Assembly: GCF_009017255.1 (NCBI RefSeq)
Contig: NZ_WBZB01000040.1
Span: forward strand, 1 to 64,000
DNA from: Alkaliphilus serpentinus
GTDB lineage: Bacteria > Bacillota > Clostridia > Peptostreptococcales > Natronincolaceae
Direction of reading: 5' to 3'
DNA: 64,000 bases
Positions within the stretch are counted from its first letter, which is position 1. The number at the start of each line of letters is the position of its first letter. Below the pieces are notes generated by a model. The model saw only the letters and a program-made list of their open reading frames with translations. It did not search any database and was not told where the DNA came from. Of the stretch, positions 5,286-36,310 are shown one piece after another. A program made the position numbers and the translations under genes.

Positions 5286-5861
5286 CTATTTTTTGCCATT
5301 CACATCAGGGATTATGTCAACCCCTATATTAATATGAAGAAAGTTTAAAAAACGTGCCGCTTTAAAAACAATTTTCTGCGATTGTCTAATTGCAATATTT
5401 TTACCAACAGCCTTTCCACCAACCGTTAAGGAAGCAACAAATCCCGCCAGTACTACAGTAATCATAGACTTTGAAATTAACAGGCCATCAGGAAGCTGTA
5501 ATATGATACTGGTTCCTACTACACCACTGATGATTCCACATATATCTCCTATTACATCATTACAGAAGCTACTAACTACACTGGCATTTCGAACTAACTT
5601 GATGGCAATTTTAGAACCTTCAACCTTATCTGCCGCCATTGCATGAAAGGGCTTGGCATCTGCAGCAGCTACTGCAATACCCAGCATATCACTTATAACT
5701 CCAATAAAAATTATGATTAGCAGCAAAAGGAAGGCTATAATTATCGCTGTGCTTGATAAAAAGATTTCTGATAAAAAGCTAAAAATTATCGTAAGTATGA
5801 AGGTCCATATTGAGATAACTATTACCCATCTTAAATTATATTTTTTCCATAATCCATTCAT
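5286..5861 (-). CDS. oapA: OLE-associated membrane protein OapA
   Basis: This is a membrane protein whose gene directly follows an OLE RNA gene. The OapA family (related to CorB/CNNM-type domains in older annotation) binds OLE RNA and anchors it to the membrane. Hydrophobic helices lie at about residues 12-30, 40-65 and 100-160. The conserved-looking core AAADAKPFHAMAADKVEG and CNDVIGDICGIISG lies between them. I chose the ATG at 5861 (191 residues, AAAGGG nine bases upstream), close to the family length. A TTG at 5921 behind GGGGGGA would add 20 charged residues. The gene lies between OLE RNA and dxs. Confidence 0.88.
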   Translation of the reverse strand: MNGLWKKYNLRWVIVISIWTFILTIIFSFLSEIFLSSTAIIIAFLLLLIIIFIGVISDMLGIAVAAADAKPFHAMAADKVEGSKIAIKLVRNASVVSSFCNDVIGDICGIISGVVGTSIILQLPDGLLISKSMITVVLAGFVASLTVGGKAVGKNIAIRQSQKIVFKAARFLNFLHINIGVDIIPDVNGKK

Positions 5862-5987
5862 TTCATTATTCCCTTTGTTTGCCTTTTTAATTTTCTTAAA
5901 GTCACTATTGTCCGACGACAATACAATCCCCCCAAAATTTTTAATAATCTATAGTAATATTATTAAATATTATATCTTTTTTCAAGA

Positions 5988-6020
5988 AAAATAAAAAGCT
6001 GATAGCCCTATACTATCAGC
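5988..6020 (-). terminator. Intrinsic terminator of OLE RNA
   Basis: On the minus strand an 8-bp stem GCTGATAG/CTATCAGC with a 7-base loop is followed by TTTTTATTTTT. This marks the 3' end of the OLE transcript, about 130 bases before the oapA start. It means oapA and dxs depend on read-through or on a separate promoter. Confidence 0.9.
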
Positions 6021-6603
6021 AAATTAAGGTAGTGGCAATACATTAAGTAAATTTTACGGCTTAGGTCCAGTTGGATTTCCCAATTCAATACTGTCTGTCG
6101 CCATAACAGCGGTTTCCCTTTAAATCGAACTCTGAATTGTCACCAATTTCAGGACTGGATTACCACTTAGTCCGCACTGTAATCCCTAATGCACTTCAAA
6201 TAGAACAGTCTAGGAGTTTTCCTCAACAATTAATCCAGCTCTTAGCCTCTTTTGCAGACTAGGTTTCAAGGAGCAATGATCTTTTCCAAAGGGCCCTTTT
6301 GTCCAAGACCTGATCTCCTTATCCACCCACCCCACTCAAGGCAGGCTACACTACAGACTGTACCTCATACATGTCTGCAGGTTCCCCCTACTTTAAATTA
6401 CTAAAGCTGGTCTCCACGAAGTGAGGGTCATCGCCCGCATGCCATTGCAGATCGCCCCCATCTCCTTACTCCCTGAATCGACCCCCAACTGGGCGTCAGC
6501 AGCCGAAACAAAGAACTTCATCGATACGCCCTTCAACGGATTTTTAGCCCCGTCTTCCAAGATGGATTAATTGACTAGAATACTGTACCACTACAAAGTT
6601 TCT
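5990..6603 (-). ncRNA. OLE RNA (ornate, large, extremophilic RNA)
   Basis: A roughly 614-base stretch between a yuiD-like gene and oapA lacks any convincing reading frame but has base composition and hairpins typical of structured RNA. Its minus strand has a consensus promoter ending at 6610, implying a start near 6602. It ends at a strong intrinsic terminator near 5990. This matches the known length of OLE RNA, about 600 nt. The context (ispA upstream, oapA and dxs downstream) is the characteristic OLE locus. GC-rich structured blocks such as GGGGGCGATCTGCAATGGC and GACCCTCACTTCGTGG lie around 6400-6470. OLE forms a membrane ribonucleoprotein with OapA. In the alkaliphile Bacillus halodurans it is linked to tolerance of cold, alcohols and Mg2+ stress. 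Identification rests on location, size, boundaries and general appearance, not on a covariance-model search. Confidence 0.9.
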
Positions 6604-6639
6604 AAAATGATTATAACATAAGTTAAATATTAGTATCAA
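6602..6639 (-). promoter_or_regulatory. Sigma-A-type promoter of OLE RNA
   Basis: On the minus strand TTGATA (6639-6634) and TATAAT (6615-6610) are 18 bases apart. The -35 box contains the TGA stop codon of the upstream yuiD-like gene. The predicted start near 6602 gives a transcript of about 610 nt to the terminator. Confidence 0.8.
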
Positions 6640-26473: not shown

Positions 26474-28270
26474 CTATTGTATTTCACCTTGAATGGGTCC
26501 TGCATCCATCATTAGATATGTACCTGAAACCTTAAGGATATGATCCTTACTTTCAAAGATTGCTCCAGCACTGTAGATACCGTTCACTCTGTTGGATGAA
26601 GTATACACATTGATATAAGCATCTTCCCTCATTCTTAATTCTGAAGCTAAAGCTGATAGCCTTCTATTAAAGTATATTAAAATTTCACCATCATGAGATA
26701 TCAACGTGGAATTGTCTATAGCAGCCTCCTTACTGGCGTTAATAAGAATTCTTGAATCACTGCTATTTCGTATATGAAGACCTTCTCCAGCGATATTGCC
26801 ATTACTTAATATTTCTACGTCCCCGGTGAAAAGGAAATTATCAGCATCAAATTCGCCAATATTTGAATTGGTCATATGGATATCATCCTCAGCCATTATA
26901 TAAATGTTTTTGTCACCTATCGATATGATTTCAGAGGAAAGAATCTCTATATTATGGCGGGATTTTATCTCAATTACACCTATGGATGATGAAGCTTCTG
27001 GTTGAATAATTGAATGATCAATTACTATATCCCTACTGTTATGAATATTTGGAGCTCCACTGGTATCAATAATCACATTTCCCCCGGTCAGAATAGTTGA
27101 CCCCAATAGATTCATTAGTCCATTAGCAGATAATTGAACATCCCTCATTGATTCTATTAAGGCTTTATTTTGCAGATTTATATTGCCCCTTCCTTCTGTA
27201 ATAAGGTTAATATTACCCTCTGTTGATATTTTAGGACCTGTGGTATGTCCTGAAGGATTTTGGTATTGATAGAGGGTTATGTTTCCATTTCTTGTTTTCA
27301 AATGAACATCTGTTTTGTTTTGAACCTCTATAATCGTTGCTAGATGGATGTTATTACATACTATCCAATCTAATTGTTTGGTATTATCAATCACGATATC
27401 TCCAATGTTGGTGGGTACATATAGGGATCCACCCAAGAGGCTAACCTCGTTTAAATCTTCATCATAAAAAGGGGTTTCAGTGTCAAAGGCTGTGAACAAA
27501 ACCTCTTTATCAAATTTATAATCTACCCCTTCTTCATAAATTCCATTATCATTTAAATCAACCCATGGAAAGTTGCCCATTTTCCAATCCGGTCCAGAAA
27601 CGAATACTGCTTGGCTGGCAACTTCCGCCCCCCTTAATCCATGTACATCAACTGGGGTTACTGTAAATACAATATAACGATTGGGGAAGGCCGATAAATT
27701 GCTTAAGCTGAAGGAGGCTTCTCCAGTTATTAATTGATAGTCCCTTGGAAAATCATTGCCCCCTGCCTCTGGCTTTGTAACATACCATCTGTAAAGGTGG
27801 GTATAAACAGCAGAGCTCCCCTCTACTGTATCGTAGGATCCAGTTAATATTGAGGATTGGTCTGCATTTAGATCATTAGGATCATTACTTACGGTTATTT
27901 TAACATTTTCAGCTACAGGTGGATTTGCTGCAGCTTTTTTTGAATAAACTTCTGAAAGAAACACAAAAACCTCAAGGCTAGGATTATCGGGAAAGGGTAT
28001 TTCCAGTAGGTTTCCTTCAACATTCTTTCCAAAGAATTCTATTGGAGTAGGATCACTTGCCCTTAGGTTATGAACAATTTCCCTTCTGATTTCTAAAACA
28101 TTTTTTTCTATTTCTTCCTGCCCATTAAATAGGTTTATGGTTGCTTTTTTGGTATCATTCATCATTTTTATACTAGAAGAAAATAAAGTCAAAAATCCTA
28201 TGGAGATAATTCCTAGAAGAGCAATAGATATGATGATTTCAATTAAAGAGATGCCTTTTTTATTCAACAT
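26474..28270 (-). CDS. Large prepilin-like protein with predicted beta-helix body
   Basis: This is an unusual 598-residue minor pilin candidate. The N-terminus MLNKKGISLIEIIISIALLG is a class III signal with cleavage after G6 and Glu at mature position 5. A fibronectin-like segment lies near 105-215 (YRWYVTKPEAG). A calcium-loop-like sequence, DLNDNGIYEEGVD, is near 238. From about 280 to 580 there are repeats rich in I/V/N such as GNINLITEGRGNINL, GNVIIDTSG, DIHMTNSNIG and EILSNGNIAG, a pattern suggesting a parallel beta-helix. It lies between the vWA pilin and pilM, and is probably a tip or shaft adhesin. No known family was recognised for the body. Confidence 0.75.
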   Translation of the reverse strand: MLNKKGISLIEIIISIALLGIISIGFLTLFSSSIKMMNDTKKATINLFNGQEEIEKNVLEIRREIVHNLRASDPTPIEFFGKNVEGNLLEIPFPDNPSLEVFVFLSEVYSKKAAANPPVAENVKITVSNDPNDLNADQSSILTGSYDTVEGSSAVYTHLYRWYVTKPEAGGNDFPRDYQLITGEASFSLSNLSAFPNRYIVFTVTPVDVHGLRGAEVASQAVFVSGPDWKMGNFPWVDLNDNGIYEEGVDYKFDKEVLFTAFDTETPFYDEDLNEVSLLGGSLYVPTNIGDIVIDNTKQLDWIVCNNIHLATIIEVQNKTDVHLKTRNGNITLYQYQNPSGHTTGPKISTEGNINLITEGRGNINLQNKALIESMRDVQLSANGLMNLLGSTILTGGNVIIDTSGAPNIHNSRDIVIDHSIIQPEASSSIGVIEIKSRHNIEILSSEIISIGDKNIYIMAEDDIHMTNSNIGEFDADNFLFTGDVEILSNGNIAGEGLHIRNSSDSRILINASKEAAIDNSTLISHDGEILIYFNRRLSALASELRMREDAYINVYTSSNRVNGIYSAGAIFESKDHILKVSGTYLMMDAGPIQGEIQ

Positions 28271-28296
28271 AAAATCTATTTTCCTCCCTAGTTAGT

Positions 28297-29886
28297 TTAT
28301 TGCGGTCCATAAATATGCCATAAATCACTTAAAATAATGACTCTAACTTCCTCGAAAATTTCTGCAAGGTCCTCTTGGTTTTGGGCTGAGTAATAAGTGC
28401 CATTGCAAATATTTGCAATCTCCGTAGCCCTAGCAACTTCCTCTGGTACTGCAGTGAAACCAATTACAAAGGTTTTTATATTGATTTCGCCATTATCAAT
28501 TAGGTTTTCACCAATGTATTCAACATAATTCATAGAATCAGCTATATTAGATGCTGTTGAAAATCCAGTACCAATGATTTCATTACCGTAAAACTGTAGA
28601 GGTACGCTTGAATTATTAGACTGCTCCACCCACCCTGGAGAGCTATACATTGTATGACTTGAGGAAAAATCATCAGTACTTCTTAGATATATTTGATCCT
28701 GATAATAGCCCTGCCCTGGCCAAAAGCCAGTTCTAATCCAAGCAGTTCTTCTATTGGTTGCCTGTAGAAAAACATTGTCATCAACATTTCCATCATCAAG
28801 TTTGTAATCACTGATATCGGTAAATTCATTTGTTCTGGTTAGCCAATAGTTGCTATAGCCAGGCCATTGTCTGTTTCTTACGGCATCGGTTTGGGGCTTA
28901 ACGCTAGAAAAGGTTGGGTCACCATCCACCAATAAAATCACATAATTCATAATATCAAAATCCGTATGATCATTATTGTAGTTTTTTAGCTGATGAAATC
29001 CCCTTCTCATTCCGTCTCCAATATTGGTTCCTCCAAATGCCGTCAAATCATTGATTTCATCCAGTAAAAAATCCTCATTTACTGAAGCATCATAAAAGTC
29101 AGAGGGATTGTTAGCCGAAGTTGAAAAGGGTATTAAGCTGACATCCACCGTTTCCATCTCTGAAAAGCCCTCTATCAAATCGATGGCTTCATTTTTCATA
29201 ATATCGACACGCCTATTGGGATAATTAGCGCTAGAACCATTCATACTCAATGCCATACTCCCTGAAATGTCTAGTACCATTGATACAGCAGCCCTTGCGT
29301 TCTCAGGCTTAGGTCTTTCATCGGTACGATAGGCCAGCGCTGTAGCATAGATTCCATCTGTCCCTCGATCTACCACCTGCAATGCATTTAGGGCTTCAAC
29401 CTCAGATTCAATAACAATTCTCTTATTTTCAGCTCCCACTATAAAGCCTTCTAAGGCAAAGCTTAATAGTTTACTATCGAAGGATAGATCCTTTTTATGG
29501 AAGGAAAGATTATAGTTAAGAAACGCCTCCGATGTTACTATAATTTTCTTATCATGGTTCCCGGTGGCCTCATTATATAAATAATGAATGATTTCTGTTT
29601 TATCCTCACTAACCCCAAAATAGTTCCAATTCTCAGCTAATTTATCCTCTTTAAAGCTTTCCATAGGAACAGTAAATACAGCGGTGGAGTATCTAATAAA
29701 TTCATTGATTTTTTCAGTAGCCACCCTCATTTCAGATTGTAATCTGTATTCATCAATAGTTGTTTTATGGGCTCTAGTTGAGAAGTTCAACATAGAAACA
29801 GCTATTAAAATAACCATTCCCAGTAAGGCTAAGCTTAGAATTACCTCCAAAAGAGTAAAACCCTTTTTATTCAAAATTCGATTCAT
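28297..29886 (-). CDS. Minor prepilin fused to von Willebrand factor A domain
   Basis: This 529-residue protein has a class III signal (MNRILNKKGFTLLEVILSLA, cleavage after G9). A pilin-like segment (about 10-175) and a large C-terminal vWA domain (about 200-525) follow. The MIDAS metal-binding residues are present: D206-x-S208-x-S210 in VLDISGSM, T287 in GGTNIGDG, and D321 in LLVDGDPTF. vWA minor pilins in other Gram-positive T4P act as tip-located adhesins. An EYIGENLIDNG stretch and a terminal ILSDLWHIYG segment complete it. It lies between the PilX-like gene and the beta-helix pilin. Confidence 0.88.
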   Translation of the reverse strand: MNRILNKKGFTLLEVILSLALLGMVILIAVSMLNFSTRAHKTTIDEYRLQSEMRVATEKINEFIRYSTAVFTVPMESFKEDKLAENWNYFGVSEDKTEIIHYLYNEATGNHDKKIIVTSEAFLNYNLSFHKKDLSFDSKLLSFALEGFIVGAENKRIVIESEVEALNALQVVDRGTDGIYATALAYRTDERPKPENARAAVSMVLDISGSMALSMNGSSANYPNRRVDIMKNEAIDLIEGFSEMETVDVSLIPFSTSANNPSDFYDASVNEDFLLDEINDLTAFGGTNIGDGMRRGFHQLKNYNNDHTDFDIMNYVILLVDGDPTFSSVKPQTDAVRNRQWPGYSNYWLTRTNEFTDISDYKLDDGNVDDNVFLQATNRRTAWIRTGFWPGQGYYQDQIYLRSTDDFSSSHTMYSSPGWVEQSNNSSVPLQFYGNEIIGTGFSTASNIADSMNYVEYIGENLIDNGEINIKTFVIGFTAVPEEVARATEIANICNGTYYSAQNQEDLAEIFEEVRVIILSDLWHIYGPQ

Positions 29887-29921
29887 TTACATCACTCTCT
29901 CCTATTGATGCTATAGCCTTG

Positions 29922-30365
29922 TTATTTTGATCTATAAATGGCAGTAGGGTTATTGATGTTAAACTCCATTTTGGTGCTATGGGTTACCCCAGAAACCCCT
30001 AATCTTCCTATAGATAATATCCTAATCCATTGCTCTCCATCCTTTGTAAAGGAAGAAACCGATACATCTATGGTTCCATTGCCAAAGGGTTTATTCAGTT
30101 CCTCCATCTGATGGGTAGGATCATTTATAAAGTCGTCCAACAAGTGGGCATTATCCATCATCAGAGCCCCATAAGCTAGTTCTGCCCCAGAAGTTGCTAG
30201 ATAATAGGCCCGCATGGAATCCTCCTGAAGCTTTACTTGTTTGATGTTGGTGTTGTTAATATAAATCACCGAGGCAATTAATATTGTAATAACCATAAAA
30301 ACAATTAAAACCAACGGCAAAGAGGCCCCATTTTTACTCTTTATCACTTTGTAAATTTTCAACAT
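29922..30365 (-). CDS. PilX-like minor pilin
   Basis: This 147-residue membrane protein starts MLKIYKVIKSKNGASLPLVL followed by a hydrophobic helix. It resembles PilX-type minor pilins that lack the canonical Glu at mature position 5. The segment EDSMRAYYLATSGAELAYGAL near residue 43 is typical of the family. It lies between pilD and the vWA pilin, so it probably helps assemble the tip complex. Confidence 0.78.
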   Translation of the reverse strand: MLKIYKVIKSKNGASLPLVLIVFMVITILIASVIYINNTNIKQVKLQEDSMRAYYLATSGAELAYGALMMDNAHLLDDFINDPTHQMEELNKPFGNGTIDVSVSSFTKDGEQWIRILSIGRLGVSGVTHSTKMEFNINNPTAIYRSK

Positions 30366-30402
30366 CCTAATCTCTCCTAAAAGCCTTGAAGCTCAATTAT
30401 GG

Positions 30403-31155
30403 CTAAATTATACTTAAATACCATTGTAGAAGCTCCTTACCGAAAAAAGTGACAATGGTAGTAGCTATAACAATAAAGGGCCCAAAGGGAATGTAATCCT
30501 TTCTTCCCTTCATCCTCAATAGAACTAACATACTAGATAGGATTCCACCGATTATAAAGGATAAAAATATAATTAGGATAACCTCCATTAAGCCAAACCA
30601 AAATCCTAAGGCTGCCATTAGCTTAATATCTCCCCCTCCCATTGCCCCATTGGTTAAGACAGCAATAAGGAGAAAGAAGCCTCCAGCAACTAACAAACCC
30701 AGGAAATTACTTAAGGGAAAAGAATGAGTGGCAAGATTTTTTGATCCAATAAAGATCATTGCTAAAACAAAAATGAATATATTTAAACCATCGGGGATTA
30801 TTTGATGGTAATAGTCAATCATAAAAATAACAATCAATCCACTTATAAGAAGGGCATATTGTAGAAACTCAATAGAAAAACCAAATTTCATAAAGAGCAG
30901 CACATACATAAGACCATTCATAGACTCAACAATTGGATATTGAAGGGAGATTTTTTCACCACAATACCTACATCTGCCTCTATAGATTATAAAGCTGATA
31001 ATGGGAATTAAATCTATAGCCTTTAATGAAGTTTTACATTGGGTACAATGGGAGGGGGGAAATACAATTGATTTTTCCTCTGGAATACGGTAAATACAAA
31101 CATTTAAGAAGGAACCGATAACTAACCCAATTGTAAAGATGAGCAAATAATTCAT
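30403..31155 (-). CDS. pilD: Prepilin peptidase (leader peptidase/N-methyltransferase)
   Basis: PilD is a membrane aspartyl protease that cleaves class III signals and N-methylates the mature pilin. The start at 31155 is supported by AGAAGGAGG six bases upstream, giving 250 residues. The N-terminal domain has two CxxC pairs (CTQC...CRYC, zinc-binding) after FLNVCIYRIP. The catalytic GxGD-type aspartates are in VIFMIDYYHQIIPD and NGAMGGGDIKLMAALGF. About seven membrane helices follow. It is the only prepilin peptidase seen here. Confidence 0.95.
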   Translation of the reverse strand: MNYLLIFTIGLVIGSFLNVCIYRIPEEKSIVFPPSHCTQCKTSLKAIDLIPIISFIIYRGRCRYCGEKISLQYPIVESMNGLMYVLLFMKFGFSIEFLQYALLISGLIVIFMIDYYHQIIPDGLNIFIFVLAMIFIGSKNLATHSFPLSNFLGLLVAGGFFLLIAVLTNGAMGGGDIKLMAALGFWFGLMEVILIIFLSFIIGGILSSMLVLLRMKGRKDYIPFGPFIVIATTIVTFFGKELLQWYLSII

Positions 31156-31283
31156 GATTGTCCTCCTTCTTCTGTAAAAAAATCCATTACTAAATCCATA
31201 GCTTTGAATAGTTTTTGAAAAAAATTTTAATACTATCATACAATACCCATCTGTAAAATAAGCTGTTTTAGGGGGTGTATGAT

Positions 31284-31589
31284 ATGAAAAAAAACAAGCT
31301 AATATACCTTTTAATTTACCTATTGACCATTATGGATGTCCTCTGTACATCCATTGGTATAAAGCTGAAGCTAGTTAGTGAGGCCAATCCTATATTAGCC
31401 TTCTTTATAAATAAATCCTTGTTATTAACAATGATGGCTGTACTTCTATTTGTTGGTGGTCTATTATACTTTATTTATAAGGTAAGAAACAGAATTAAGT
31501 GGCTACCTACGGCCTTAAGTCTCGTTGTAGTAGTTAAGGTGTATGTAATGTTTTTGCATGCAAGGTGGATGGTAGCTGCGCTAAATTAA
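31284..31589 (+). CDS. DUF5658-like small membrane protein
   Basis: This plus-strand gene inside the minus-strand pil operon encodes about 101 residues with three membrane helices. The motif LTIMDVLCTSIGIKLKLVSEANPI (positions about 14-37) and a C-terminal LVVVVKVYVMFLHARWM are typical of the family. The ATG at 31284 has GGGGG about 8 bases upstream. A GTG at 31275 is also open. Function unknown. Its opposite orientation between pilD and pilA is odd. Confidence 0.7.
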   Translation: MKKNKLIYLLIYLLTIMDVLCTSIGIKLKLVSEANPILAFFINKSLLLTMMAVLLFVGGLLYFIYKVRNRIKWLPTALSLVVVVKVYVMFLHARWMVAALN

Positions 31590-31596
31590 GATTGAA

Positions 31597-31692
31597 GAAT
31601 TAAGAATTAAGAATGTTGAATGAACAGCTAATGTTGAATGTTAAATGTTGAATGAACAGCTAATGTTGAATGTTAAATGTTGAATGTTGAAT
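31597..31692. repeat. 32-bp tandem repeat with short AT-rich repeats
   Basis: After GAATTAAGAATTAAG, a 32-bp unit beginning ATGTTGAATGAACAGC is present twice exactly (31613-31644, 31645-31676), followed by ATGTTGAATGTTGAATG. The tract lies between the DUF5658-like gene and the major pilin gene. A related tract in inverted orientation lies on the other side of pilA. Confidence 0.9.
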
Positions 31693-31699
31693 GAAGGTT

Positions 31700-31724
31700 G
31701 GAGGGGCAAGCCCCTCCTATTTTG
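31700..31724 (+). terminator. Terminator of the DUF5658-like gene
   Basis: GGAGGGGC and GCCCCTCC form a perfect 8-bp stem with a 2-base loop, followed by TATTTTGTT. It is oriented for plus-strand transcripts, downstream of the repeat tract. Confidence 0.6.
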
Positions 31725-31790
31725 TTAAAAGGTAATATGTAAACCTAAAGAGCTAAGCTGGGACACTAAACATCCCTTTGTCCCAAACTT

Positions 31791-32153
31791 CTAGGGAATT
31801 GCTGTCAAAGTGTTTGTCCCTGGTGCCCATCGTCCACCTGGTGTATCTATGCTTTCTACATCAACTCCATTATAGTTTATTACATAAGTTCCATTTAAAC
31901 CATCTAGGTATGAAGTTAAATCTGTCATTGCAGGTGTGGAATTTTCTCCAAACTGTGCTTTATACATATTTACTGCATTTAGAATTGTTCTAGCATTGGC
32001 AACTTCAGCTATTTCTTCTGCCTGACCTCTAAAAGCACCTAATCTAGGCACTGCTATGGCCGCCAAAATACCTAAAATAGCTATTACTACAATAAGTTCT
32101 ATTAGGGTGAAGCCTTTTTTGTTTCTAATTTTTCTGTTGATTAATTGAATCAT
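31791..32153 (-). CDS. pilA: Major type IV pilin
   Basis: This 120-residue prepilin has a class III leader (MIQLINRKIRNKKG, cleavage after G14) and the mature N-terminus FTLIELIVVIAILGILAAIA with Glu5, ending in a short C-terminal domain (about 70 residues) and no cysteines. RBS AAGGAGGAG precedes the ATG. The small globular domain is typical of Gram-positive major pilins. It lies between pilC and the DUF5658-like gene and is flanked on both sides by simple repeats. Confidence 0.93.
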   Translation of the reverse strand: MIQLINRKIRNKKGFTLIELIVVIAILGILAAIAVPRLGAFRGQAEEIAEVANARTILNAVNMYKAQFGENSTPAMTDLTSYLDGLNGTYVINYNGVDVESIDTPGGRWAPGTNTLTAIP

Positions 32154-32191
32154 TATTTCTCCTCCTTTTTTTATGTATATATTTATTTTTT

Positions 32192-32211
32192 CCCTGTTTT
32201 ATTTATCAGGG
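32192..32211 (-). promoter_or_regulatory. Hairpin in the pilA leader
   Basis: CCCTG and CAGGG (10-base AT loop) would fold about 40 bases upstream of the pilA ATG in the minus-strand transcript. The run following it is A-rich, so it is not a terminator. It may stabilise or process the pilA message. Confidence 0.35.
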
Positions 32212-32218
32212 CAAAGAT

Positions 32219-32338
32219 GATTAAATTAAGAATTAAGATTTTGGAATTAAGAATTAATGTTTGAACAATATTAAAATATCTGCTTCGATTTATCGAAGCT
32301 ACTTTAATTCAACATTCATCATTCAACATTACATTGAA
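32219..32338. repeat. Simple-repeat tract between pilC and pilA
   Basis: Contains two GAATTAAGAATTA-type copies, an 8-bp hairpin GCTTCGAT/ATCGAAGC (32282-32299), and, on the minus strand, AATGTTGAATGATGAATG. The latter is the same motif as the repeat at 31613-31692, in opposite orientation. Together they enclose pilA. Confidence 0.8.
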
Positions 32339-33550
32339 TTATATTGTACTTATCATATCAAACATTGGCAGAAGCATTGCAATTACTATGGCTCCAATTA
32401 TCAAGGCCATAAAAACGATCATCAAGGGCTCTAATAATCCCGTCATCTTTTGAATGGCAGTTTCAACCTCATCATCATAAAAGTTTGCAGTTTTCTCTAA
32501 TATATCATCCAAGGCTCCTGATTCCTCGCCGATTTGAAGCATCGAGTCCAACATTGGAGGAAAAAAGCCACTGTTTCTTATGGGCTTAGAAAGGGGTGCC
32601 CCCTTTCTCACATCCTCCATTGTTCCATGAATAACCTTCTCTAGCACCTTATTTCCAACAACCCTAGCAACGATATCCAAAGCCTCTAAAAGAGAGATTC
32701 CACTAGCTAAAAGGATGGATAAGGTCCTTGAAAATCTTGAGGTTGCTACCTTCTTTATGGTGTTACTTACCACTGGTATTTTTAGCTTGAAGCTATCAAA
32801 GGAATACTTACCATCCTCGGTACTGATAAAGACCTTAAAGGAAAAAACCATTAATACAGTAGCAGCAACAAAGAAATACCAATAAGTGGTTAAGGTGTTA
32901 CTTATATTCAGAAGTATTTTTGTCGGTAAGGGTAAAGGCACCCCGCTTCCTTCAAACATACTTACAAAGGTGGGCATTACAAAGGCTAGTAGAAATACCA
33001 CCACTGTTAGGGCTAATATACTAAGAACTAAGGGATACATCATAGCTGTTTTTACCTTGTTGTTGATTTTGTTCTCCTTTTCATAGTGTTCTGCCATTCT
33101 ATTCATTATGGTATCCAAGTTACCACTGGCTTCACCTGCTTCCACCATGTTAATAAACAAATCTGGGAAAATATTATTTTTTGTCTTCATGGCTTCAGAA
33201 AGGGTTCTACCTTTTTGAAGATCTTCATAAATGTTGGCAACAGCCTCCCTTAGCCTTTTATTCTCCGTTTGCTTTTTTAATATATCTAAAGAGGCTATTA
33301 TACTAACACCTGCATTCAGCATGGTGTAGAACTGTCTACAAAATATGGATATATCCTTAACCTTGATCCTACCACCAATGGTAAAGCTGTTCATATTGAG
33401 GTTTTTACCTTCTGTTGCCTCAATAATATTTATGGGATATTGGTTACTTTCCCTTATTAGGGTAACTACTTCACCCTTACTATTGGCAACAAAAGTGCCT
33501 TCTACGGTTTTTCCTTCACTTGTAGTTGCTTTATAACTAAAGGTTGGCAT
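32339..33550 (-). CDS. pilC: Type IV pilus inner-membrane platform protein PilC
   Basis: PilC is the GspF-family platform that couples the PilB/PilT motors to pilin polymerisation. The 403 residues have a cytoplasmic N-terminal region (KATTSEGKTVEGTF), two T2SSF domains (about 70-190 and 270-395), and three membrane helices near 170, 225 and 380. Recognisable segments are FCRQFYTMLNAGVSI and SGNLDTIMNRMAEHYEKE. pilT lies 15 bases upstream. Confidence 0.96.
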   Translation of the reverse strand: MPTFSYKATTSEGKTVEGTFVANSKGEVVTLIRESNQYPINIIEATEGKNLNMNSFTIGGRIKVKDISIFCRQFYTMLNAGVSIIASLDILKKQTENKRLREAVANIYEDLQKGRTLSEAMKTKNNIFPDLFINMVEAGEASGNLDTIMNRMAEHYEKENKINNKVKTAMMYPLVLSILALTVVVFLLAFVMPTFVSMFEGSGVPLPLPTKILLNISNTLTTYWYFFVAATVLMVFSFKVFISTEDGKYSFDSFKLKIPVVSNTIKKVATSRFSRTLSILLASGISLLEALDIVARVVGNKVLEKVIHGTMEDVRKGAPLSKPIRNSGFFPPMLDSMLQIGEESGALDDILEKTANFYDDEVETAIQKMTGLLEPLMIVFMALIIGAIVIAMLLPMFDMISTI

Positions 33551-33564
33551 ATAAACACCTCATT

Positions 33565-34620
33565 TTAAAGTAAAATCATTCTATTAATAAATTCAACATC
33601 TACTCCCTGACTAAGGAGGGTTTCTTGGTCAATAAGGTCCTTTTTAAAAAGATTAATTAAGCAGCTGTCCATCAATTGCATCCCATATTTTGATCCTGTT
33701 TGAATGCTATTTTGTATTTGATGGGTTTTACCCTCTCTAATTAAATTCTTTACAGCAGGATTGGCAACCATCACTTCGAAGGCTGCTACTCTGCCCCTTC
33801 CATCCTTTTGAGGTAAGAGTTGCTGAGAGATGACTCCCTGAATAACAGAAGCCAACTGAACTCTAATCTGCTGCTGTTGATGGGGTGGAAATACATCAAT
33901 TATTCGATCTATCGTTTTAGCTGCTCCTAGGGTGTGAAGGGTGGATAGAACAAGATGTCCGGTTTCTGCCGCCGTTATAGCAATGGAAATCGTCTCTAAA
34001 TCCCTCATTTCTCCCACGAGAATCACATCGGGATCTTGTCTGAGAGCTGATCTTAAGGCATTGGAAAAGCTATTGGAATCATTACCAATCTCCCTCTGAT
34101 TTACGATACTTTTGTTATGCTTATGTATATATTCAATTGGATCTTCGAGAGTTAGTATATGATAGCTTTTTTCTCTATTGATTAAATCGATCATAGAAGC
34201 CAGAGTAGTGGATTTACCGCTACCGGTGGGACCAGTTACCAATATAAGGCCCCTTGGTTTGTTGGCCAGCTCCTTTACCACAGGAGGAATCCCCAAGGTC
34301 TCCATAGAGGGAGTATTTAATGGTACCTGTCTTAAAGCCAAACCGTAGCTTCCCCTTTGCTTAAAAATATTGACTCTAAATCTTCCCAAGCCAGGGCTGC
34401 TGTAGGAACAATCAAGTTCTCCTCTTTCATCTAGCTCTTCAAATTGGTGGTCATTAATGACTTCTTTAACTAAGGATTTGGTATCCTCTGGTGTTAAAAA
34501 TCCCTCCGTCATGGTGATCAATTTACCATTTAATCGCATTGTTGGAGGATATCCAACTGTGATGTGTAAATCCGAGGCATTACTTTCAACAATCCTTGAT
34601 ATTAAAACTGTAATATCCAT
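33565..34620 (-). CDS. pilT: Twitching motility ATPase PilT
   Basis: PilT is the hexameric retraction ATPase. The 351 residues include the Walker A GPTGSGKST at 130-138, the Asp box TLEDPIEYIHKHN, Walker B ALRQDPDVILVGEMRD, the His box TGHLVLSTLHT, and the PilT-specific C-terminal AVKNLIREGKTHQI. Its presence shows the pilus is likely retractile. It is 10 bases after pilB. Confidence 0.97.
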   Translation of the reverse strand: MDITVLISRIVESNASDLHITVGYPPTMRLNGKLITMTEGFLTPEDTKSLVKEVINDHQFEELDERGELDCSYSSPGLGRFRVNIFKQRGSYGLALRQVPLNTPSMETLGIPPVVKELANKPRGLILVTGPTGSGKSTTLASMIDLINREKSYHILTLEDPIEYIHKHNKSIVNQREIGNDSNSFSNALRSALRQDPDVILVGEMRDLETISIAITAAETGHLVLSTLHTLGAAKTIDRIIDVFPPHQQQQIRVQLASVIQGVISQQLLPQKDGRGRVAAFEVMVANPAVKNLIREGKTHQIQNSIQTGSKYGMQLMDSCLINLFKKDLIDQETLLSQGVDVEFINRMILL

Positions 34621-34630
34621 CTGTGTCCTC

Positions 34631-36310
34631 CTAATCTAAGCTGTAGGCTACCTTCAATAATTCCTCAATTGAGGTAACGCCCTTTAAAACCAATTCTCTA
34701 CAGCTGTCCTTTAATGTTGTCATTCCATTTTTTTCTGCTTCATCTCTAATCTCATCAATTGAAGCGCCTCTATCAATCAAAGCCCTTATCCCCTTTGAAA
34801 TAGCCATTACCTCATGTACAGCAATTCTACCTTTGTATCCAGTATTGTTGCAGGTGTTACAGCCTTTACCAGTATAAAGCTTGGTTCCTCTTTCTAGGTT
34901 TAGGATCTTCATTTCCTTTTCTGTAGTGGTATACTGAGATTTACAGTCTTCACAGAGTCTTTTAACCAAACGTTGTGCAACAACCCCCACCATCGAAGAA
35001 GAAACGAGATATGAGTCCACACCCATATCCATTAATCTAGCAACCGTTGATGCTGTATCATTTGTATGCATAGTACTTAGTACTAAATGTCCGGTTATTG
35101 CTGCCCTAACAGCAATCTGTGCGGTTTCTGAATCCCTAATTTCACCAATCATAATAATATCAGGGTCTTGTCTAAGTATCGATTTTAATCCATTTGCAAA
35201 GGTTAGTCCTGCCTTGTTATTTACTTGTACCTGTGAAATACCCTCCAATTGGTATTCCACAGGATCTTCAACGGTTATGATGTTTTTTTCAATTTTATTT
35301 AACTCCCTTAATACTGTATATAGGGTTGTACTTTTACCACTGCCAGTTGGTCCAGTTACTAGCACGATTCCATTGGGATTTTTAATAATTCCATCAAATA
35401 TAGCCAAATTATTATCTGTAAAGCCCAATTGGGTTTTTGTCACTAAAAAGTTTCCCCTATTTAAAAGTCTAATAACAATTTTTTCACCGAATACAGTTGG
35501 TAGAATGGATATCCTTAAATCTACCTCTACTCCATCAACCGACATCTCTACCCTACCGTCTTGTGGAATTCGTTTTTCAGCTATATCCATTTTTCCCATA
35601 ATCTTTATTCTTGTTACTATGGCAGAATGAGTAGACATGGAGGGTGTCATAATCTCCTGTAGATCACCATCAATTCTAAAACGTACCCTTATGAATCTTT
35701 CAAAGGGCTCTATATGTATATCACTGGCATTATATTTTATCCCTTGCTTGATGATAGAATTAACCAGTTTTACAACAGGAGCATTTTTTATAGCACTTAA
35801 TACCTCTTCATCAATGTTCTCGATATCCTCTAAGTTATATTGCTCTTTAAACTCTTCTATAGCCTTCTCTGCACTTTGCTTTTCATAATATTTTTCAATG
35901 GCAGCCACAATTGATGTAGAGGAGGCTATTACAGGCTCCACCTCCATTTTTGTGGCTATTTTGATATCATCTATGGCAAAAATATTAAGGGGATCTGACA
36001 TAGCTACCACCAGCTTACCCCTTGAAATCTTTATGGGCATTAACAGGTGTCTTCTTGCCAACTTTTCTCCAACCAACTTAATAACCTCTGTGTCTATATA
36101 GTACTTTTCTAGGTCGACATGAGGAATTCCTAATTGAAATTCTAAAACCTCAATCATAGCTTTTTCTTCAATAAATCCCTTTTCAATTAAAACTTCACCC
36201 AGCTTCTTACCGGTAGATTTTTGTAGTTCTAACGCTCTCTTCAGGCTTTCATGGGTAATAATTCCGGATTCTACCAAAATATCCCCTAACCTTTTTCTAA
36301 TTATTGCCAT
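34631..36310 (-). CDS. pilB: Type IV pilus extension ATPase PilB
   Basis: PilB (GspE family) powers pilus assembly. The 559 residues have an N-terminal GspE domain (KRLGDILVESGIITHESLKR, about 1-150) and a RecA-like core with GPTGSGKST near 322, QDPDIIMIGEIRDSETA near 388 and HLVLSTMHTNDTAS. A zinc motif follows, with CEDC near 456 and CNTC near 485. It is the first gene of the pil operon, whose upstream region contains no clear riboswitch. Confidence 0.97.
   Translation of the reverse strand: MAIIRKRLGDILVESGIITHESLKRALELQKSTGKKLGEVLIEKGFIEEKAMIEVLEFQLGIPHVDLEKYYIDTEVIKLVGEKLARRHLLMPIKISRGKLVVAMSDPLNIFAIDDIKIATKMEVEPVIASSTSIVAAIEKYYEKQSAEKAIEEFKEQYNLEDIENIDEEVLSAIKNAPVVKLVNSIIKQGIKYNASDIHIEPFERFIRVRFRIDGDLQEIMTPSMSTHSAIVTRIKIMGKMDIAEKRIPQDGRVEMSVDGVEVDLRISILPTVFGEKIVIRLLNRGNFLVTKTQLGFTDNNLAIFDGIIKNPNGIVLVTGPTGSGKSTTLYTVLRELNKIEKNIITVEDPVEYQLEGISQVQVNNKAGLTFANGLKSILRQDPDIIMIGEIRDSETAQIAVRAAITGHLVLSTMHTNDTASTVARLMDMGVDSYLVSSSMVGVVAQRLVKRLCEDCKSQYTTTEKEMKILNLERGTKLYTGKGCNTCNNTGYKGRIAVHEVMAISKGIRALIDRGASIDEIRDEAEKNGMTTLKDSCRELVLKGVTSIEELLKVAYSLD

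Follow-up and report, generated by a model that had tools for sequence, protein, structure and literature searches.

A sequence-conserved hairpin between OLE RNA and oapA in the ole-oapA locus of Alkaliphilus serpentinus

The window analysed here, a stretch of 64,000 nucleotides of Alkaliphilus serpentinus DNA, carries on its minus strand the order xseB - ispA - DUF212 gene - OLE RNA - oapA - dxs - tlyA - argR - recN. The ole-oapA pair is flanked by ispA (farnesyl diphosphate synthase, 7987-7100) and dxs (1-deoxy-D-xylulose-5-phosphate synthase, 5268-3367), both on the minus strand, and the isoprenoid setting claimed in a sequence-only reading of this DNA was thus found; that reading named the two flanking genes correctly and passed over the DUF212 (divergent PAP2) gene (7106-6636, minus strand), which lies between ispA and ole and overlaps the ole promoter with its 3' end. 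Isoprenoid and DNA-repair genes are both present near ole, and these are processes named for ole neighbourhoods in passages of PMC12265935. The predicted primary transcript of OLE RNA occupies 5990-6603 (minus strand) and is composed of the Rfam match at 6607-6016 and a 3' terminator hairpin. Its ends were deduced from the promoter at 6639-6610 and the terminator at 6020-5998, which in sequence delimit about 6603-5990, in agreement with the earlier claim of a 614-base unit having a promoter and a terminator of its own. Next comes oapA (5286-5921, minus strand, TTG start), encoding OLE-associated protein A, a CNNM-like membrane protein of 211 aa with a DxxxD motif.

The host had been called a spore former, and SpoIIIAA, SpoIIIAE, SpoIIIAG and SigK are indeed all encoded within the window. 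By OapA identity, the closest named isolates are Alkaliphilus peptidifermentans (67%, classified in Natronincolaceae, Peptostreptococcales), A. transvaalensis (63%) and Natronincola peptidivorans (60%), with metagenome-assembled genomes (MAGs) interspersed; by reference to these relatives the host is presumably anaerobic. Elsewhere in the window a type IV pilus-like cluster was noticed at 26474-36310, with a PilT family ATPase at 33565-34620, and the protein at 28297-29886 is one that we take, by eye, to have a pilin-like N terminus and a von Willebrand-type region.

OLE (RF01071) is the sole Rfam match of the whole window, with 484.2 bits (E 5e-139) over model positions 1-616 of 616 at 6607-6016 on the minus strand. 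The gathering score of this model is 50 bits and it was passed widely, so the test which the sequence-only reading had itself proposed for its OLE claim came out in favour of that claim. A covariance-model search of the 3.29-Mb host genome gave this single OLE match, and the fold z-score of the RNA is -4.6 (20 shuffles). Every defining feature of OLE or OapA that was tested was found in the window copy. Judged by its sequence, the window copy is a full-length member of the known OLE ribonucleoprotein class. OLE was detected in 284 of the 398 genomes of a phylum sample, and passages of PMC11332333 list it in 2,822 Bacillota genomes, with near-complete co-occurrence of OLE and OapA. Because OLE is so widespread and so regularly accompanied by OapA, an ole-oapA copy in the window is to be expected; the copy itself is one more member of the class, and the finding is mostly already known.

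Homologues of OapB, OapC and bS21, the OLE partners of the Halalkalibacterium halodurans system, are present in the host genome too. The OapB homologue is a 94-aa frame (E 6e-14 to PDB 7k9b, 'OLE-associated protein B'), flanked by genes which by eye we take to be map and infA. The OapC/YbxF homologue is an 81-aa frame (E 7e-16 to PDB YbxF) followed by what looks, also by eye, like rpsL, and bS21 gave one match. In the 148 genomes of the order an OLE match was obtained for 64, and in 63 of these it lies above the cut-off. OapA was found in 66/148 genomes, including 63/63 of those with OLE above the cut-off. The three genomes with OapA and no OLE match are G018 and G049, where the contig stops within OLE and leaves a piece of it beside OapA, and G031, whose oapA stops 2 bases short of the contig end. 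Six genomes of the phylum sample gave several OLE matches each (G265, G300, G331, G362, G382, G413), which might have indicated large insertions in OLE; for G331, G362, G382 and G413 this was rejected, as pieces there start no more than 120 bases from a contig start. A paralogous second OLE in G048, a 450-contig draft, was likewise rejected: it sits on another contig behind another ispA-DUF212 pair, genes which we recognised by eye, and a mixed assembly is for this reason likelier than a paralogue.

The gene beside OLE had been claimed to encode a membrane protein of the OapA type, which is upheld by the DxxxD motif and by a predicted fold closest to CNNM transporters. The motif is D122-V-I-G-D126 in the window protein, and both aspartates are invariant in 22/22 aligned homologues; they would be the equivalents of D100 and D104 of H. 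halodurans OapA, a correspondence drawn without alignment to the H. halodurans sequence. At the sequence level Pfam CNNM scores 23.2 bits on OapA, below the cut-off of 28.4, no curated Pfam cut-off is passed, and only 2/22 OapA homologues reach CNNM at E 0.001. The AlphaFold2 model (pLDDT 77.7) has as its best structural match the CNNM protein MtCorB (7m1t), with Z 12.9 over 134 residues at rmsd 2.8, a value to be read with the tool's warning that Z below about 13 may be a common arrangement among helical proteins, as the OapA model is all-helical. The top four rows are all CNNM chains with Z 11.3-12.9 (7cff at Z 11.4), the next row falls to 7.6, and the best Foldseek E is 0.02. A CNNM-like fold of OapA was published previously, as stated in passages of PMC11332333. 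Published work on H. halodurans makes it probable that OapA is a CNNM-type domain for metal-ion transport. With CNNM/CorC/MpfA transporters the model shares the CNNM transmembrane domain (7m1t, 7cff); it differs from them in having DxxxD and in that the CNNM region alone is matched, the Pfam scan giving CNNM only and no CBS or CorC_HlyC domain in the 211-aa protein. Apart from OapA, the host genome encodes an MpfA-like CorC_HlyC protein (a 426-aa frame) and a 275-aa frame that also matches CorC_HlyC.

The ole promoter, TTGATA - 18 nt - TATAAT with TG ahead of the -10 box (6639-6610, minus strand), agrees with the consensus at 11/12 bases, and its -35 hexamer includes the stop codon TGA of the DUF212 gene. 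In the 75 nt that precede the OLE core, 49/65 loci of the order have a promoter-like site matching at least 10/12 consensus bases; by the same criterion such sites occur in 5% of dinucleotide-resampled upstream sequences and in 1.3% of windows elsewhere in the loci, and the ole promoter is on these grounds more than chance. Where a promoter of this quality and a DUF212 stop are both present (44 loci), the TGA falls inside the -35 hexamer in 37. That ole has its own promoter, as predicted here, is already stated for Bacillus halodurans in passages of PMC9723947. A promoter sharing bases with the stop codon of the gene before it was not met in the more recent OLE literature, which was searched for an ole terminator; the overlap is a new detail relative to that literature, and its priority is not established. 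Since 16/65 loci are without a promoter of at least 10/12 and 29/65 are without a terminator in the scan given below, independent transcription of ole is not universal. Locus L094 (G067, an Anaerosolibacter MAG) is about 120 nt shorter than G111 in the stretch from the -35 box to the P4-type stem and so lacks the -10 box together with some 90-100 nt at the 5' end of ole. It retains oapA and the 3' hairpin, and the gap is either a deletion or an assembly error.

The 3' terminator hairpin of the window copy (5998-6020, minus strand) reads GCUGAUAGU-AUAGG-GCUAUCAGC in the RNA, from the DNA stem GCUGAUAG/CUAUCAGC; the stem at 6020-5998 is followed by TTTTTATTTT, the U tract continuing to about 5988, and the stem sequence is kept across families. 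In a scan blind to sequence, an intrinsic terminator was located just 3' of OLE in 36 of the 65 loci (1.1% of resampled sequences), and by manual count 32 of these 36 have a stem of the RCTGATRG...CYATCAGY type. If a locus is instead counted whenever its stem deviates by no more than 3 mismatches, the hairpin is found in every OLE locus of families f1 (18/18), f4 (7/7), f6 (5/5, three of them with partial OLE) and f7 (1/1) and in part of f5 (4/6) and f11 (4/15), and it is absent from the loci of f2 (12), f3 (1), f8 (2) and f12 (1). Named carriers include Alkaliphilus, Natronincola, Tindallia, Anaerosolibacter, Geosporobacter, Tissierella, Sporosalibacterium, Anaerosalibacter, Caloranaerobacter, Schnuerera, Anaeromonas and Gudongella; the hairpin was absent from the ole loci examined in Bacilli, Thermoanaerobacter and Thermoanaerobacterium. 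In a Thermosediminibacteraceae MAG (L171), Fervidicola (L195) and Thermovorax (L224), a hairpin CACCTC-GTTY-GAGGTG at the ole-oapA junction replaces the terminator and includes the likely ribosome-binding site of oapA, which suggests another way of limiting oapA.

Whole genomes were searched for the exact pattern GCTGATAG-N3-10-CTATCAGC, with the same pattern read backwards as the control. It occurs in 30/148 genomes of the order, once in each, and 27 of these copies are the ole hairpin by coordinates; the control pattern occurs in 1/148. These counts do not support the idea that the hairpin is a generic terminator of these genomes. The copies away from ole belong to G027, G137 and G140 (family f3), genomes with no OLE match whose fetched stretches are also devoid of OLE, and the copy of G137 sits after an unrelated gene. 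A further 24 genomes (one locus was entered twice) were chosen by hand, 15 because their ole locus has a hairpin of this type and 9 because it does not. Of the 15, 11 have the exact pattern, once each and always at ole, and 4 have a stem variant; the 9 have none. Taking the order and the chosen genomes together, the exact copies are at ole in 38/41 genomes. In the phylum sample the exact pattern was found in 10/398 genomes (control 1), namely the host and 9 others, one of them with two copies, and OLE was absent at the 10 places of those 9 others. Although the exact stem pattern also occurs away from ole, almost every exact copy in this branch belongs to the ole hairpin.

Conservation was measured on 131 OLE loci, a set leaving out the loci judged to be duplicates, L153-L160, L162, L163, L165, L168 and L192, the locus L189 in which the OLE core is absent, and the partial OLE of G018, G030 and G049; the 129-row OLE alignment is further without L166 and L196, in which the 5' core is absent. 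A stem with at most 3 mismatches is present in 51 of the 131 loci and is exact in 35. Over these 51 loci the mean identity amounts to 94% for the arms, 74% for OLE alignment columns and 53% for 6-nt loops, while loops in general differ in length (4-10 nt) and in sequence. The arms are that similar across loci whose OapA share only about 50% identity. All listed stem variants keep pairing, through G-U pairs or two-sided changes (G-C to A-T in 4 loci, A-T to G-C in 2), a result which is biased, since similarity to the stem sequence was itself the basis for choosing the loci. As a control, the 12 kb following ole were taken from 20 genomes of f1 and f4, families with the hairpin at every locus examined, together with 7.2 kb of the window, and the ole hairpins were labelled by stem sequence. 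Each of the 21 ole hairpins has a counterpart (14/16 or more stem positions) in every one of the 19-20 genomes from other genera. For the 51 other hairpins of terminator-like form, a counterpart is present in 0.8 such genomes on average, and 34 of them have none. The six control hairpins with counterparts in 4 or 5 genomes correspond, judging from their sequence and location, to a stem within OLE.

It is with high confidence that we regard the region as an ole-oapA locus of a spore-forming relative of Alkaliphilus and Natronincola, with the following explanation included in full. The ole gene would be a transcription unit of its own, with a promoter at the end of the DUF212 gene and a hairpin before oapA. 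Most transcripts would stop at the hairpin and oapA would be made by read-through, to which the upstream operon may add some. It is proposed that OLE RNA would be in excess over OapA because oapA is expressed by read-through past the hairpin. By analogy with the work on H. halodurans, the RNA would dimerise and OapA would anchor it in the membrane, OapB and OapC would bind the P12.2/P13 and kink-turn regions, and the complex would help the cell in the cold, with alcohols or excess Mg2+ present, and on poor carbon sources. The window locus and H. halodurans OLE/OapA have in common the match to the whole covariance model and the position of oapA directly downstream; in contrast to H. halodurans, a terminator-like hairpin of conserved sequence closes the window ole ahead of oapA. 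The H. halodurans cluster is described in passages of PMC12265935 and PMC11332333 as one polycistronic transcript whose RNA is processed at the 3' end. In a soda-lake metatranscriptome OLE RNA accounted for about 1% of ncRNA reads, the source organisms being unstated in the passages concerned (PMC6704655).

The word terminator does not occur in PMC9723947, PMC12054373, PMC11332333 or PMC12265935. In PMC10898510 the passages seen with this word concern the ykoY riboswitch and those in PMC8058203 are not about ole. No ole terminator is mentioned in the OLE literature searched, from which the 2006 discovery paper, the 2011 membrane paper, the 2012 alcohol paper and the 2020 and 2021 OapB papers were missing. 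The sequence-fixed 3' hairpin was hence not seen described; it is a new detail relative to this literature, and its priority is not established. According to passages of PMC12286853, OLE beyond its 5' region was not resolved by cryo-EM. A lineage-specific fixed hairpin between ole and oapA would offer a small, swappable handle on how the level of OLE RNA, its 3' end and the level of OapA are coupled.

The hairpin probably ends OLE and limits read-through into oapA. The fixed sequence of the stem is not accounted for by termination alone and suggests that something besides RNA polymerase reads it. On the reading to which we give a chance approaching, and not quite reaching, the even, the hairpin is an RNA element read by sequence, by a protein partner, a 3'-trimming nuclease or an antiterminator of oapA, and was added in the Peptostreptococcales/Tissierellales lineage. 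A conservation exceeding that of nearby terminator-like hairpins argues for it, as does the pairing kept by every listed variant, with the bias of locus choice noted above. Because the variants keep pairing, an RNA site is favoured over a DNA site, and a dimeric DNA-binding protein is unlikely because, in addition, the spacing of the arms ranges over 4-10 nt. In two Anaeromonas loci (L175, L187) an extra copy of the 5' arm, degenerate in L187, was seen by eye downstream of the hairpin and ahead of the oapA start, an arrangement in which the 3' arm might pair with either copy; this fits an antitermination switch and hints at antitermination there. Against an element of this kind stand the hairpin-free loci within the same families (f5, f11) and the lack of any known partner. 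An attenuator-type alternative pairing inside OLE was also looked for and rejected: when 50 OLE with the hairpin were compared with 79 without it, no aligned OLE segment was complementary to either arm in more than half of the hairpin set, and no conserved partner segment for the element was found inside OLE.

It is conceivable, if on balance rather doubtful, that the hairpin is an ordinary intrinsic terminator inherited from one ancestor, the sequence of which has simply not drifted. Its presence does follow the OLE tree, with 7 parsimony changes on 129 tips compared with a shuffled mean of 40, and in the window the hairpin has the stem and the U tract expected of a terminator. Further clades have distinct ole terminators, which resemble each other among relatives when compared by eye, as in Acetobacterium (L191) and a Eubacteriaceae MAG (L198), or in G143 (family f3) and Peptoclostridium litorale (L185), which have the common stem TCCTAGTA/TACTAGGA. 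Such an origin sits badly with arms that are nearly identical while loops vary and OapA is only half identical, and with the f1/f4 control, in which neighbouring hairpins are matched between genera far less often. A pure terminator is weakened further because the U tract demanded in the blind scan is not recognised in 4 of 36 full hairpin loci of the order (G006, G067, G111, G118). Returning to the sequence-read element, we propose tentatively, and would sooner expect to see the proposal fail than hold, that part of Peptostreptococcales/Tissierellales has an undescribed extra 3' element of OLE, in which the near-fixed stem would serve to end the RNA and would also be recognised by its sequence, through a protein partner or an antitermination switch, and so set the amount of OapA per OLE RNA.

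That the window RNA is a decayed, non-functional copy of OLE is very improbable. In favour of decay, a segment equivalent to model positions ~208-232 is mostly absent from it in the Rfam alignment, albeit in a part of OLE that varies among relatives (passages of PMC12265935 give common variations from J6/7 through P8); the full-length 484-bit match and the intact OapA frame, promoter and terminator all speak against decay. A possible loss of OLE was seen in another genome of the order, G108, where a 22-bit OLE-like remnant (L097, G108:C51:7399-7469) is found and OapA is absent. G096, also of the order, has one OapA and three different OLE RNAs (L017 1501-2101, L063 4591-5180 and L064 5076-5625), which are 73-81% identical. 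The best promoter of its canonical, oapA-adjacent copy is 7/12 and not of the usual kind, and the two orphan copies have promoters of 12/12 and 11/12. In both orphans conserved nucleotides are changed at a loop which we take, by our own assignment, to be the OapB site of P13, and at a GA near the kink-turn region. Two Clostridiales-2 sRNAs (RF02937) were also observed in L064, at 1183-1266 and 5700-5784, one of them directly after an orphan OLE.
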